A stretch of DNA of 58,434 bases from Persicirhabdus sediminis (GTDB lineage Bacteria; Verrucomicrobiota; Verrucomicrobiia; Verrucomicrobiales; Akkermansiaceae): positions 1 through 58,434 of the forward strand of contig NZ_JAENIM010000007.1 of assembly GCF_016595495.1 (NCBI RefSeq), read 5' to 3'. Position 1 is the stretch's first letter; each line of letters begins with the position of its first letter. The notes below the pieces were generated by a model that saw nothing but the letters and a program-made list of their open reading frames with translations, was not told the DNA's origin and made no database searches. Positions 11,144 through 25,144 of this stretch are shown one piece after another. Position numbers and translations under genes: made by a program.

Positions 11144-11863
11144 CTACTTTCTATCGTTGAGCCACTTGGCAATGGCTAGCAATTTAGCTAAGCCCTCTCT
11201 TCCCTCTGATTTGGTCAGCTCAGATGCGTGATCTGATAGCTCCAACTGACGAGCCTCTGACCACTGCCCGGCGCGGTTTTTGAAATCTAATATCGCCGCC
11301 TGCTCTTCTCTCTCCAACGGCATCGTTGGCGCAATCGCCTCCAAGGCTGGCGGTAGAGCTGACACTCGCTGCGTGAATGGTCTTTCGTAAATGACCAAGG
11401 TATTGGCCGCCATGTCGCCAAGTCGTTGGAACTTCTTAGAAGCAAAACAGCTGAACAAACCAATGCCGTAGAATCCAGGCAAGGCATCCACGCCACGCAG
11501 CATATTGCGTAAAAACGACTGCCCAAAGCTGATAGGAATGCCCGATTGATCGACCACCCGTAGGCCCATCGCACGTTTCCCAGGTGAAGCTCCTTTTTTC
11601 CCCGCCTCAAACAAAATCTGATAGAACCAATGTAGAATAAACATGCCCAAGAGCAAAACACCTTGGCCAACGTTTTGACCAAGCGCAATACCTACCACTG
11701 AGGTGATCATGGCTAAACCAATAAAAATCCCTAACTGGATCATCAGATCAATCGCGTAAGCAAAGCTCCGCACGTACGGCCCAGCGATGCGCAATCGAAT
11801 CTCGACCCCTTCGGCGAGCTCAATGCTTTGCAATGTATCTATGCGCGGTGGACTATCTGTCAT
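11144..11863 (-). CDS. RDD-family membrane protein
   Basis: A 239-residue protein opening with 'EIRLRIAGPYVRSFAYAIDLMIQ', the R-D-D type signature, followed by membrane helices and 'GASPGKRAMGLRVVDQSG', typical of RDD proteins. The C-terminal 75 residues are soluble and charged. RDD proteins are proposed transporters or assembly factors. It is the first gene of the six-gene minus-strand operon and its promoter should lie in 11864-12000, opposite the dnaB upstream region. Confidence 0.88.
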   Translation of the reverse strand: MTDSPPRIDTLQSIELAEGVEIRLRIAGPYVRSFAYAIDLMIQLGIFIGLAMITSVVGIALGQNVGQGVLLLGMFILHWFYQILFEAGKKGASPGKRAMGLRVVDQSGIPISFGQSFLRNMLRGVDALPGFYGIGLFSCFASKKFQRLGDMAANTLVIYERPFTQRVSALPPALEAIAPTMPLEREEQAAILDFKNRAGQWSEARQLELSDHASELTKSEGREGLAKLLAIAKWLNDRK

Positions 11864-12257
11864 GCTGAAAAAACTCGTCGTAGACTAATCAAATCTATCC
11901 AGAGGTCACTCTAAAAAATCAGCGATTAAGAACACATGCAAGAAGGCGTTCAAATACATGAACTTAATCGAACCACTGAAGGCGATTTAGTTAGGGGTTT
12001 TATTGCCCCTAAATCACAAGTTTTTCGCAGTCATTCGCACTTACTCAGAACTTATTCACAATAGCTAAGATTGCTTTAATGCATTGATTCATAAGGCTTT
12101 TACCTAATCAATAAGTGCAAATAAGCTGCAATTCACAACTTATTCACAATGATTCAATTTACAGTGACTTAGCTAAATCTATTCACACTTATTCACAAGA
12201 AAATCACCGCTTACGAATATTGACGATGAGGCCGATATCTGCCAATACTCTGGCCAC
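11864..12257. promoter_or_regulatory. AT-rich divergent intergenic region with DnaA-box-like sites
   Basis: This 394-base gap separates the divergent RDD operon and dnaB. It is AT-rich and holds three exact TTATTCACA nonamers (12052-12060, 12140-12148, 12189-12197) in one orientation, a one-mismatch CTATTCACA at 12179-12187 and weaker ATTCACA sites. It also contains a bulged inverted repeat (GATTT..AGGGG / CCCCTAAATC, about 11984-12015). TTATNCACA is the classical DnaA-binding consensus. It may be a DnaA-regulated promoter or part of a replication origin. Confidence 0.6.
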
Positions 12258-13718
12258 ATGTCCACTGACGCACCAGCTAAGAACTTTAACAAAAAATCGG
12301 GGCCCAAACTGCAGGAAGCTCCGTCGCCAGATGATGCGGCTACCGCCGCCAGAGCGCTGCCCCACGCGATTGGACCAGAAAAGAGCATCCTCAGCTCCAT
12401 GCTGCAGGATCCTCAGCAATACATTGCTGACTCGGTGCAAGAAAAGCTCACTGATAGACATTTCTATCACCCAGCTCACGGCAAGCTCTATGAAGTACTG
12501 CTGGAGCTCTACAACCAGAACGAACCTATCGAGCTGGTATCGCTGACGCAAACATTGATGGACCGCGAATTACTCAGCACCATCGGTGGCGCGCCCGCCA
12601 TCACCGAGATTTACACCTACGCACCTACTCATGCACACTTTGGTCACCACCTCAGTATTATCAAAGAGAAGTTCGTCTTGCGTAGTATCATTGGCTCGTG
12701 CACCGAGGCCATCCACCGTGCCTACGAAGACCAAGAAGAAGTAGAACAACTGCTAGATCAAGTGGAGCAGGAAGTCATGGCTATCCGTGAAGGTGCGGAG
12801 AACCAAACCACCGAGACCATCAAAGACAACGTGCAAGCGGTGGTTGCGAATTTAGAAAAATTCCTCTCTGGCGACATTGACTCAGGCGGCTTGAAAACTG
12901 GCTACAAGGAGCTCGATACCATGTCTAACGGACTCAAGGCTGGCGACATGTTCATTCTAGCAGCTCGACCATCAATGGGTAAAACCTCATTGGCGATGAA
13001 CTTTGTTGAGCACGTCTGTCTCGATCAAGGGCTGCCAGCGATGGTATTCTCGCTGGAGATGAGCTCGGAGCAGTTGGTGCAGCGTCTATTATTCTCACGC
13101 GCCCGCTTTGCCTACTCATCACTGCAGAAGGGATTCAAACCTAGCAAACAGGATCTGAAAAACATCATGCGCTCAGCTAAGGAAATTGCCGAGTGTAACA
13201 TGCTCATCGACGATACCCCGGGTATTTCTATCAACGAGCTGCGAGCTAAAGCACGGCGCGCCAAAATGGACCGCGACATTCAGTTCATCGCAATCGATTA
13301 CCTCCAGCTGATGAAATCTAACTCGAAGCAAGCGCAGAACTCTCGTGAGCGTGAGGTGGCGGAAATTTCAGCGGGTCTGAAAGCAATTGCCAAAGAGCTG
13401 AAAATCCCCGTACTGGTTCTAGCTCAGCTTAACCGAGGTCCGGAAAACCGAACTGGCGGAACTCCAAAAATGTCTGACCTTCGTGAATCTGGCTCGATCG
13501 AGCAGGACGCCGATATGATTGGGCTTCTCTACCGTACCGCATACTACGCTGAGAAAAATGAGGAAAATGCCGAAGCCACTGCAGCTGAGGTAGACGAAGG
13601 TAAAGCCGAACTCGTCATTGCCAAAAACCGTAACGGTGAAACTGGTAGCGTCCCGCTAACATTCATCGCTAACCTCATGCGCTTCGAAACTAGAGCATGG
13701 GAAGATGAGCCTAACTAA
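12258..13718 (+). CDS. dnaB: Replicative DNA helicase DnaB
   Basis: A 486-residue hexameric helicase. The N-terminal DnaB domain ('AIGPEKSILSSML') spans about 37-140, followed by the linker and the RecA-like C-terminal domain. The Walker A lysine is K242 in ARPSMGKTS. 'VFSLEMSSEQL', Walker B 'FIAIDYLQLM' and the H4-type 'LAQLNRGPENR' are all present. It unwinds DNA ahead of the replisome and is loaded at the origin. The ATG lacks an obvious Shine-Dalgarno. Three DnaA-box-like sites lie just upstream, and a terminator follows. Confidence 0.97.
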   Translation: MSTDAPAKNFNKKSGPKLQEAPSPDDAATAARALPHAIGPEKSILSSMLQDPQQYIADSVQEKLTDRHFYHPAHGKLYEVLLELYNQNEPIELVSLTQTLMDRELLSTIGGAPAITEIYTYAPTHAHFGHHLSIIKEKFVLRSIIGSCTEAIHRAYEDQEEVEQLLDQVEQEVMAIREGAENQTTETIKDNVQAVVANLEKFLSGDIDSGGLKTGYKELDTMSNGLKAGDMFILAARPSMGKTSLAMNFVEHVCLDQGLPAMVFSLEMSSEQLVQRLLFSRARFAYSSLQKGFKPSKQDLKNIMRSAKEIAECNMLIDDTPGISINELRAKARRAKMDRDIQFIAIDYLQLMKSNSKQAQNSREREVAEISAGLKAIAKELKIPVLVLAQLNRGPENRTGGTPKMSDLRESGSIEQDADMIGLLYRTAYYAEKNEENAEATAAEVDEGKAELVIAKNRNGETGSVPLTFIANLMRFETRAWEDEPN

Positions 13719-13819: not shown

Positions 13820-14482
13820 GTGAGTTTACCAGACTTTTCCGACATCCAAGCCGTCCTGTTCGATTTCGACGGACTCATTCTCGATACCGAATGGCCAATC
13901 TACACCTCGTGGCTGCGCCTCTATCAGCGCGAAGGGCAAGACCTCCCCGTGCAGATGTACGCGCAGTGTATTGGCAGTGGATTTCACACTTGGTCGCCTG
14001 AAGCCTATCTGGAAGAGCTCACCGGCAAAGAATTCGACTGGGAAAAGGAAAATGCCGCGCGTCAGATAGAGCTAGAAGCTGATATTGAAACGCAAGACCT
14101 GCTCCCCGGCATCAAACAGACTCTCATCGGCCTGAAACAAAAAGGCATCATCTGCGCGGTTGTTTCCAGCTCGTCACATGCCTGGGTCGACCGCTGGGTT
14201 AGCCATCACCAACTCGACGAATTTTTCCTAACTACAGTGTGTCGCGAAGACGCCAATCAGATCAAACCAGCGCCAGACCTCTACCTCGAAGGCGCTAAAC
14301 AAGTCGGCATTAAGCCAGCTCATTGCCTCGTCATCGAAGACTCACAGAATGGGGTGCTCGCTGGCGCCGAAGCAGGCATGCGCACTGTCGTTGTACCTAG
14401 CAGGCTCACCCAGCACTACGAATTTGAACTCGCCACCATGCGCACCTCCAGCCATCTCAGCTGGCTAGAACAACTGGGCTAA
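13820..14482 (+). CDS. HAD-superfamily phosphatase (beta-phosphoglucomutase-like)
   Basis: A 220-residue HAD subfamily IA protein. Motif I is DFDGLILDTE with nucleophile D15 and acid/base D17; motif II is 'VVSSSS'; motif III/IV is 'KPAPDLYLEGAKQVG...CLVIEDSQNGVLAGAEAGM'. The helical cap sits between motifs I and II, as in beta-phosphoglucomutase and related sugar-phosphate phosphatases. The substrate cannot be assigned. The start is GTG at 13820, with a GGGGC-type stretch just before it. It stands 40 bases after the dnaB terminator and is probably transcribed separately. Confidence 0.9.
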   Translation: MSLPDFSDIQAVLFDFDGLILDTEWPIYTSWLRLYQREGQDLPVQMYAQCIGSGFHTWSPEAYLEELTGKEFDWEKENAARQIELEADIETQDLLPGIKQTLIGLKQKGIICAVVSSSSHAWVDRWVSHHQLDEFFLTTVCREDANQIKPAPDLYLEGAKQVGIKPAHCLVIEDSQNGVLAGAEAGMRTVVVPSRLTQHYEFELATMRTSSHLSWLEQLG

Positions 14483-23770: not shown

Positions 23771-25144
23771 ATGCGCATGATCACACCGCTCCTCACTGAT
23801 CTTTACCAACTGAACATGGCTGATGCCTATTGGAAAAACGGCATGCAAGACCACCATGCCGTCTTCCACTTGTTCTACCGCAAAGCACCCTTTGGCGACA
23901 AAGCCTGCCTTACAGCGGGAACTCAAGAGGCAGTTGAATTTCTATCAGACATTCATTTCTCTCCCGTGGAGCTCGACTATCTAGCCACGCTCACAGGTGC
24001 TGACGGAGCCGCGCTTTTCAGCTGTGATTTTCTAGACTATCTAGCAAAAATGCACTGGCAGCTAGATGCCGCCATCATGCCTGAAGGAGAAATTGCCTTC
24101 CCACACCAGCCAATTATGCGTGTTAGCGGCCCGCTCATTCAGTGCCAGCTGGTAGAAACAGCACTGCTAAACCTCGTTAACTTTCAGACACTGATAGCCA
24201 CCAAAGCTGCGCGTATCTGCGACGCCGCCGCCGGCGACCCAGTCATCGAGTTTGGTCTACGCCGAGCTCAGGGATTTGACGGTGGACTCAGCGCCAGCCG
24301 CGCTGCCTACATCGGCGGCTGCAATGGCACATCTAACGTATATGCTGGACAAAAGTTTGGCATCCCGGTCAAAGGAACTCACGCCCATAGCTGGGTGATG
24401 AGCTTTGACAGCGAGACAGATGCCTTCCGCGCCTACGCTGAGGCCCAACCCAACAATACTATCTTGCTAGTAGATACCTACGATACCATCGAAGGCGTGA
24501 AAAAAGCAGCCGCCATTGGCCTCGAGTTAGAAAAATCAGGCCATCCATTTTTAGGCATTCGGCTAGACTCAGGAGATCTAGCAGCACTGAGCATTGCCGC
24601 TAGGAAGATCCTCGATGAGACTGGCCTCGAGCACACAAAAATCGTTGCCAGCAATGATCTGGACGAATACAGCATCCGCCAGATCAAACAACAGGGTGCG
24701 AAAATCGATACATGGGGAGTGGGCACCAAACTCGTCACCGCCTACGATCAACCAGCTCTAGGTGGTGTTTACAAAATGGGCGCCATCAAAGCTCCCGGTG
24801 GTAGCTGGCAGGGAAAAATGAAGTTTTCTAACGACACGATTAAAACCAGCTATCCGGGCCACCTGCAAGTCGCCCGCCAACGCGACCCAGCTGGAGCCAT
24901 CACCAAAGATACCCTGTACGATTGCAAGCTAGTCATATCTGCTCCACACCCTGACCAACAACCATTGTTAGTCAGTGCGCTGGAAAATGGTCAAATCTGC
25001 CGCCAGCCAGATGCGCTCGACCTCATCCGCAAAAGAGCCATACTCAACTGGCAATGGCTGCAAAAACGTGCTACTCCTGAGCTCGCAGTCGACCCACAAG
25101 TTGACGCAGCCAAAGCCCGCATTCACAAAACCAAGGCCAACTAA
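23771..25144 (+). CDS. pncB: Nicotinate phosphoribosyltransferase
   Basis: A 457-residue enzyme that makes nicotinate mononucleotide from nicotinate and PRPP in the Preiss-Handler route. Recognised from 'LLTDLYQLNMADAYW', 'EFGLRRAQG', 'GTHAHSWVMSF', 'IRLDSGDLAALS', and 'WGVGTKLVTAYDQPALGGVYKM'. The histidine in GTHAHSW corresponds to the conserved auto-phosphorylated histidine region. The nadE start is two bases after its stop, so the two are one operon. Confidence 0.95.
   Translation: MRMITPLLTDLYQLNMADAYWKNGMQDHHAVFHLFYRKAPFGDKACLTAGTQEAVEFLSDIHFSPVELDYLATLTGADGAALFSCDFLDYLAKMHWQLDAAIMPEGEIAFPHQPIMRVSGPLIQCQLVETALLNLVNFQTLIATKAARICDAAAGDPVIEFGLRRAQGFDGGLSASRAAYIGGCNGTSNVYAGQKFGIPVKGTHAHSWVMSFDSETDAFRAYAEAQPNNTILLVDTYDTIEGVKKAAAIGLELEKSGHPFLGIRLDSGDLAALSIAARKILDETGLEHTKIVASNDLDEYSIRQIKQQGAKIDTWGVGTKLVTAYDQPALGGVYKMGAIKAPGGSWQGKMKFSNDTIKTSYPGHLQVARQRDPAGAITKDTLYDCKLVISAPHPDQQPLLVSALENGQICRQPDALDLIRKRAILNWQWLQKRATPELAVDPQVDAAKARIHKTKAN

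Follow-up and report, generated by a model that had tools for sequence, protein, structure and literature searches.

Three identical DnaA-box nonamers stand in the same orientation directly in front of the replicative helicase gene dnaB of Persicirhabdus sediminis, raising the question of whether they couple helicase synthesis to DnaA or form part of the chromosomal origin. Both readings had been proposed in a first-pass annotation of the stretch of DNA analysed here, a window of 58,434 nucleotides. The boxes lie in a gap between dnaB and a divergent RDD-family gene, whose neighbours are SpoIIM-family, DUF4350 and MoxR-type AAA genes together with a DUF4129-like gene below the cut-off. In agreement with the annotation, the gap is AT-rich (63% AT, compared to 52% in the window) and contains an inverted repeat. 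The dnaB gene was matched in all 78 genomes searched, its own included; the nearest named DnaB match (66% identity) was that of an Akkermansiaceae bacterium (locus L169). The features of the region are as follows.

11144..11863, minus strand: RDD-family gene, divergent from dnaB (Pfam-type domain match)
11864-12257: gap between the RDD-family gene and dnaB, 394 bp
11991..12012, no strand: small hairpin TTAGGGG-N8-CCCCTAA in the gap, from the sequence
12021..12049, plus strand: weaker boxes TTTTTCGCA (12021), TCATTCGCA (12031) and TTACTCAGA (12041), 7/9 each, 10 bp spacing
12052..12060, plus strand: exact DnaA box TTATTCACA, last in a run of four 9-mers (starts 12021, 12031, 12041, 12052)
12129..12137, plus strand: weaker box CAATTCACA, 7/9, starting 11 bp ahead of the exact box at 12140
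12140..12148, plus strand: exact DnaA box TTATTCACA
12179..12187, plus strand: CTATTCACA, one mismatch, starting 10 bp ahead of the exact box at 12189
12189..12197, plus strand: exact DnaA box TTATTCACA; distance from its start to the -35-like TTGACG, 31 bp
12211..12219, plus strand: degenerate 9-mer TTACGAATA, 6/9, abutting TTGACG
12220..12225, plus strand: predicted -35 element of the dnaB promoter, TTGACG; TTGAC precedes dnaB in 30 of 77 genomes
12244..12249, plus strand: predicted -10 element AATACT, 18-bp spacer, 4/6 (promoter-like motif match)
12258..13718, plus strand: dnaB, replicative DNA helicase, 486 aa (Pfam DnaB_C, E=2.5e-94; DnaB N-terminal domain, 3.9e-22)

A motif scan bore out the exact TTATTCACA sites at 12052, 12140 and 12189 and the CTATTCACA site at 12179, all of which are oriented towards dnaB. 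Each exact box has a partner upstream: the pairs 12041/12052 and 12129/12140 combine it with a 7/9 box 11 bp upstream and the pair 12179/12189 with an 8/9 box 10 bp upstream, with gaps of 2, 2 and 1 bp inside the three pairs. Consensus boxes thus occur in tandem about one helical turn apart before the gene, the arrangement of a DnaA-regulated promoter. The window contains exact TTATNCACA three times, always in the dnaB gap. As a count for the whole window this is unremarkable (expected 1.9; at least three in 29 of 100 shuffles). However, the clustering of the boxes in the gap is beyond chance, as none of 5000 dinucleotide shuffles of the gap had three boxes (both strands counted; mean 0.027). 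With N counted as a match, 9-mers of at least 7/9 in the gap numbered 12 forward and 1 reverse, compared to a forward mean of 3.95 and a maximum of 11 in 2000 shuffles. The annotation erred in recording only a few one-mismatch relatives elsewhere in the window (28630, 44113); 15 other such sites occur, and the total of 19 matches on the two strands compares with a shuffle mean of 14.1.

The region upstream of dnaB was compared in 77 of the 78 genomes (the own genome included, G051 left out), using the best dnaB match per genome. Counts of box spacing and TTGAC distance leave out G020 and G039, near-duplicates of G008 and G030, both of which are included in counts of box occurrence. For the 45 exact forward boxes located within 400 bp of dnaB, partners of at least 7/9 accumulated at offsets of -11 (13 cases) and +10 to +12 (5, 7 and 4), a pair of exact boxes being scored on both sides. 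A further peak occurred at -21/-22 (5 and 3), and all other offsets from 9 to 40 had 0-2 partners each. The boxes upstream of dnaB are therefore a tandem array at about the helical repeat, ~11 bp.

The array is also linked to a -35-like element. In some relatives, as in the window, the sequence TTGAC precedes dnaB: in the window's own genome (G000) and in G009, G012, G034 and G043, where the matches begin at residue 1, its first base is 38-39 bases ahead of the match start. TTGAC was found 25-160 bp before the match in 30 of 77 genomes and was absent from this interval in the other 47, while the control GTCAA, in nearly the same interval, occurred in 7. An exact box at most 60 bp upstream of TTGAC was present in 13 genomes (13 boxes), at distances of 19, 19, 20, 29, 30, 31 (seven times) and 34 bp. 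The 31-bp distance is shared by G000, G005, G013, G017, G029, G038 and G047, which belong to four genera (g1, g6, g7, g14). In the window, the nearest strong box ends 22 bp before the hexamer. A 9-mer of at least 7/9 directly abuts TTGAC in six genomes; the window, with 6/9, is not among them.

Together, the predicted -35 and -10 elements match at 9/12 positions, and three promoter-like sites occurred in 521 bases, compared to 1.3 in shuffles; taken alone, the prediction of the dnaB promoter is weak. Only eight bases separate the -10 element from the dnaB ATG at 12258, so a leaderless dnaB mRNA is predicted; with transcription starting about seven bases past the -10 element, the leader would be all but absent.

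The layout TTATNCACA-N18-23-TTGAC was matched 18 times across 58 whole genomes, compared to 6 times for the reversed control. Seven of the 18 were placed by position: six are dnaB promoters (G000, G005, G007, G017, G029 and G034, from 5 genera) and one, on contig C8 of G000, precedes an nrd gene. Since the layout was learned from dnaB, this result shows specificity and not an independent discovery. The support from the layout is weakened by the TTGTTCACA form, which performed no better than its control (3 matches each); one of its three matches is at dnaB (G013).

The annotation had proposed conservation of the nonamers in related genomes as a check, and its outcome was mixed. Within 250 bp before the dnaB match, TTRTNCACA occurred 44 times in forward orientation, in 30 of 77 genomes, and 5 times in reverse, in 5 genomes. 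Shuffle controls (200 runs) gave a mean of 0.59 (maximum 3) forward and 0.26 (maximum 2) reverse, and the reversed pattern was found 3 times forward and never in reverse, indicating that the reverse sites too are above chance, although far less so than the forward ones. As background, a sample of 799 kb of G047 and G035 DNA contained TTRTNCACA 7 times, counting both strands. However, 47 of the 77 genomes lack a forward box within 250 bp of dnaB. Within the same family, 22 of 48 genomes (own included) have one and 26 do not, and all four genomes of genus g3 are without. Among 80 named loci, a forward TTDTNCACA within 300 bp of dnaB was present in 3 of 33 from Verrucomicrobiota and 3 of 47 others; one of the three box-bearing Verrucomicrobiota loci, L171, is probably the same record as G020. 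As boxes are lacking in many relatives, the feature is patchy.

G006 (contig C4, ~143640-143850; L030) has four forward TTATTCACA at 529-730 bp ahead of dnaB, a far greater distance than in most other box-bearing genomes.

Most probably, the gap upstream of dnaB contains a promoter that responds to DnaA, and production of the helicase is probably tied to the replication switch. The proposal that helicase synthesis is coupled to DnaA is favoured by same-strand boxes in 30 of 77 genomes and by their preferred distance to TTGAC, and is weakened by the 47 genomes without forward boxes, which include 26 of 48 in the family. It is further weakened by the 9-mer abutting TTGAC, which is only 6/9 in the window, and by the third pair, whose 1-bp gap differs from the 2-3 bp of E. 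coli. From the arrangement we infer a promoter on which DnaA, probably as ATP-DnaA, would bind the strong TTATTCACA boxes, each together with the weaker box that lies about one helical turn (10-11 bp) further upstream, so that binding would occur in pairs. The oligomer would then spread head to tail over the weaker boxes, along a single face of the DNA, until it reaches the -35 element; there, DnaA would change the recruitment of RNA polymerase and hence dnaB transcription. The output of dnaB would track the state of the replication switch.

The sign of this effect may be either. With the predicted start near 12256, the centres of the box at 12189 and of the 9-mer abutting TTGACG would lie near -63 and -41, positions that fit those known for activators. 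Activation is favoured on this account by a small margin over repression, in which DnaA would cover the -35 element.

The boxes could instead titrate DnaA as a sink, in the manner of E. coli datA, and leave dnaB transcription unaffected. The presence of several strong boxes away from oriC would suit this role, and the pairs at 12052 and 12140 are distant from the -35-like hexamer. However, a sink needs neither a fixed orientation nor a preferred distance to TTGAC, both of which were seen in relatives, and many box-bearing relatives have only one exact box. We therefore regard a pure sink as unlikely.

Less likely still, the 9-mers could be bound by another protein or represent a promoter-proximal repeat unrelated to DnaA. 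Binding of DnaA to the boxes is itself a prediction, and the recognition helix of the DnaA of this genome (L004 9306-10730, minus strand), GRDHGTV, differs by one residue from that of E. coli DnaA, GRDHTTV. Because of this difference, the assumed box specificity is that suggested by motif enrichment: the genome of the window has 43 copies of TTATTCACA, compared to 9 of the reversed pattern. In contrast to what a DnaA-unrelated repeat would suggest, the same 9-mer recurs on contig C44, in the box cluster close to parS where the cumulative skew is lowest, and before an nrd small-chain gene, and nrd is regulated by DnaA in E. coli.

That the cluster is the chromosomal origin or a part of it is very improbable: it is a DnaA-box cluster in an AT-rich gap adjoining a replication gene, but it has neither a cumulative GC skew minimum nor a nearby parS. 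Since the assembly consists of 47 contigs, skew was read contig by contig. No skew switch occurs at the dnaB boxes; the skew is negative on both sides (-0.14 up to 12052, -0.115 after 12197), and of 14 bins of 4 kb in the window a single one (40-44 kb) is slightly positive. No parS was found on the contig of the window, and all three matches in the genome are on C44: two exact palindromes, at 24571 and 25441, and a one-mismatch match at 102863. The cumulative skew minimum of C44 is at 15 kb (1-kb steps), at another box cluster ~10 kb from the two exact parS.

C44:14243-14378 (L002 9244-9379), upstream of ribD: TTATCCACA on the minus strand at 14243 and TTATTCACA on the plus strand at 14304, 14360 and 14370

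To the left of the minimum, the skew of C44 is -0.075 (over 14.3 kb only, with mixed bins from -0.24 to +0.04); to the right it is +0.111, and every 10-kb bin from 20 kb to the contig end is positive. The origin of the chromosome thus appears to lie elsewhere than in the dnaB gap, and C44:14243-14378 is the probable oriC of this genome. This cluster resembles the dnaB gap in using the same 9-mer and in having a tandem pair 10 bp apart, and differs from it in its skew minimum, its proximity to parS, its box on the other strand and its position upstream of ribD.

G027 and G037 likewise have a box cluster immediately ahead of ribD, with an exact parS no more than a few kb away. In three complete genomes, G047, G018 and G035, dnaB is far from the parS group (4.86 versus 2.42 Mb, 5.46 versus 3.04 Mb and 3.74 versus 0.41 Mb, respectively), corresponding to ~2.4, 2.4 and 1.6 Mb by the shorter way round. 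An origin upstream of ribD in every relative is not supported, as loci of ~4 kb around ribD in G047, G018, G035 and G052 contained no boxes of the scanned types; ribD is ~205, 67 and 359 kb from parS in G047, G018 and G035. The match between skew and parS is also inexact in G047 (minimum near 2.48 Mb, parS at 2.42 Mb) and in G035 (switch at 0.66-0.88 Mb, parS at 0.41 Mb), where a stray positive block occurs. At the skew minimum of G047 we found long ORFs and no box cluster; a weak opposed box pair is present at 2424713/2424773, 7 kb from parS. An oriC at dnaA was rejected for the window's genome: 19.9 kb around dnaA-dnaN on C29 contain no exact TTATNCACA and two TTTTCCACA. A search for plasmids found nothing. 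In a gut-strain study that cultured Akkermansia muciniphila, origins placed by parS and skew were, in the part of the text consulted, not always at dnaA (PMC10197239). For Methylacidiphilum infernorum (Verrucomicrobia), the portion consulted of another report uses skew to place the origin 250 nt upstream of dnaA (PMC2474590), which counts against a general rule of an oriC away from dnaA.

Sites of the same type were observed elsewhere in the genome. Upstream of an nrd gene for the small chain of ribonucleotide reductase, the four genomes looked at have conserved tandem DnaA-like boxes followed by a CATATG-/CATGTTG-like stretch, which we take to be NrdR-like.

G000 C8 ~97266-97302 (L286; also L285, L287, L288): nrd-upstream site

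The starts of contigs C20, C37, C42, C46 and C47 of G000 (L005-L009) have a repeat with a double box of the type TTATTCACC-AC-TTATTCACA. On C20 the repeat leads into what we assume, from a primer site, to be the 5' end of a 16S rRNA, so that DnaA boxes may precede rRNA operons. An Rfam search of the five box-bearing contig starts gave no match.

A third arrangement consists of three boxes.

G000 C21:266512-266850 (L003 9513-9851; further loci L086, L087, L088, L269, L271, L273, L276, L282): three-box element with flanks CAAGTTATTCACAA, box order +,-,+

The box order is kept and the spacing is similar in G047, G018 and G035, and the sequence from one box to the next aligns little. The 15-mer ACAAGTTATTCACAA (at most 1 mismatch) was found in 41 of 58 genomes, the reversed controls totalling 5. 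Among 20 regions chosen for their hits, 9 have the +,-,+ order with spacings of 93-115 and 201-232 bp, the middle box being weak in two of them, 5 have the outer pair only, separated by 288-335 bp, and 6 follow neither pattern. Seven neighbour genes from C21, compared by tblastn with the regions of G047, G018 and G035, yielded one repeated family only, near the element in G047. The element was first considered as oriC because its geometry is conserved; this was rejected, as it is nearer the skew maximum than the minimum in G047 and G035 and far from parS (~2.0, 2.0 and 2.3 Mb by the shorter way in G047, G018 and G035). It could be datA- or DARS-like. Tentatively, these sites might form a DnaA network in an Akkermansiaceae-like lineage that uses one 9-mer in several geometries: an oriC at ribD away from dnaA, a phased one-way array on the dnaB -35 element, boxes at nrd and rRNA, and a gene-independent three-box element, far from the origin where seen, that would set DnaA activity in a datA- or DARS-like manner. 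In such a network, helicase supply would be timed by the dnaB array as its output arm.

Control of dnaB by DnaA is already known as a kind from Caulobacter and Mycobacterium. For Caulobacter, the section consulted of PMC9879097 names dnaB and dnaQ as genes transcribed under the control of DnaA, and the excerpt of PMC7738170 credits Hottes et al. 2005 for placing dnaB of Caulobacter crescentus under DnaA control. The window is alike in that the replicative helicase gene is, here by prediction, under DnaA control; it belongs to another phylum and has a one-way array with a preferred distance to a -35-like element. In M. tuberculosis, DnaA bound upstream of dnaB in vitro, among five strongly enriched regions, and the homologous regions of M. 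smegmatis were bound in vivo (PMC7738170, excerpt). A DnaA site upstream of dnaB, predicted in the window, is common to both cases; that excerpt gives the mycobacterial site as Rv0057. Two tandem boxes about one helical turn apart also characterise the DnaA regulon of E. coli, whose DnaA prefers box pairs 2-3 bp apart, compared to 2, 2 and 1 bp in the window, and purH combines a weak upstream box (7/9) with a perfect downstream box, as do the pairs of the window (PMC11317965, in the portion consulted). Added here are the lineage and the box-to-promoter geometry. Among titles and abstract openings of the Verrucomicrobia/Akkermansia papers retrieved on oriC, dnaA and DnaA box, we found no study of a DnaA regulon.

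For this genome the analysis supplies a candidate origin located away from dnaA, and for the phylum Verrucomicrobiota it names a series of likely DnaA sites. The architecture of the dnaB array is simple enough to be tested by moving a single box. Taken together, the findings suggest that a further distant lineage couples its helicase supply to DnaA.
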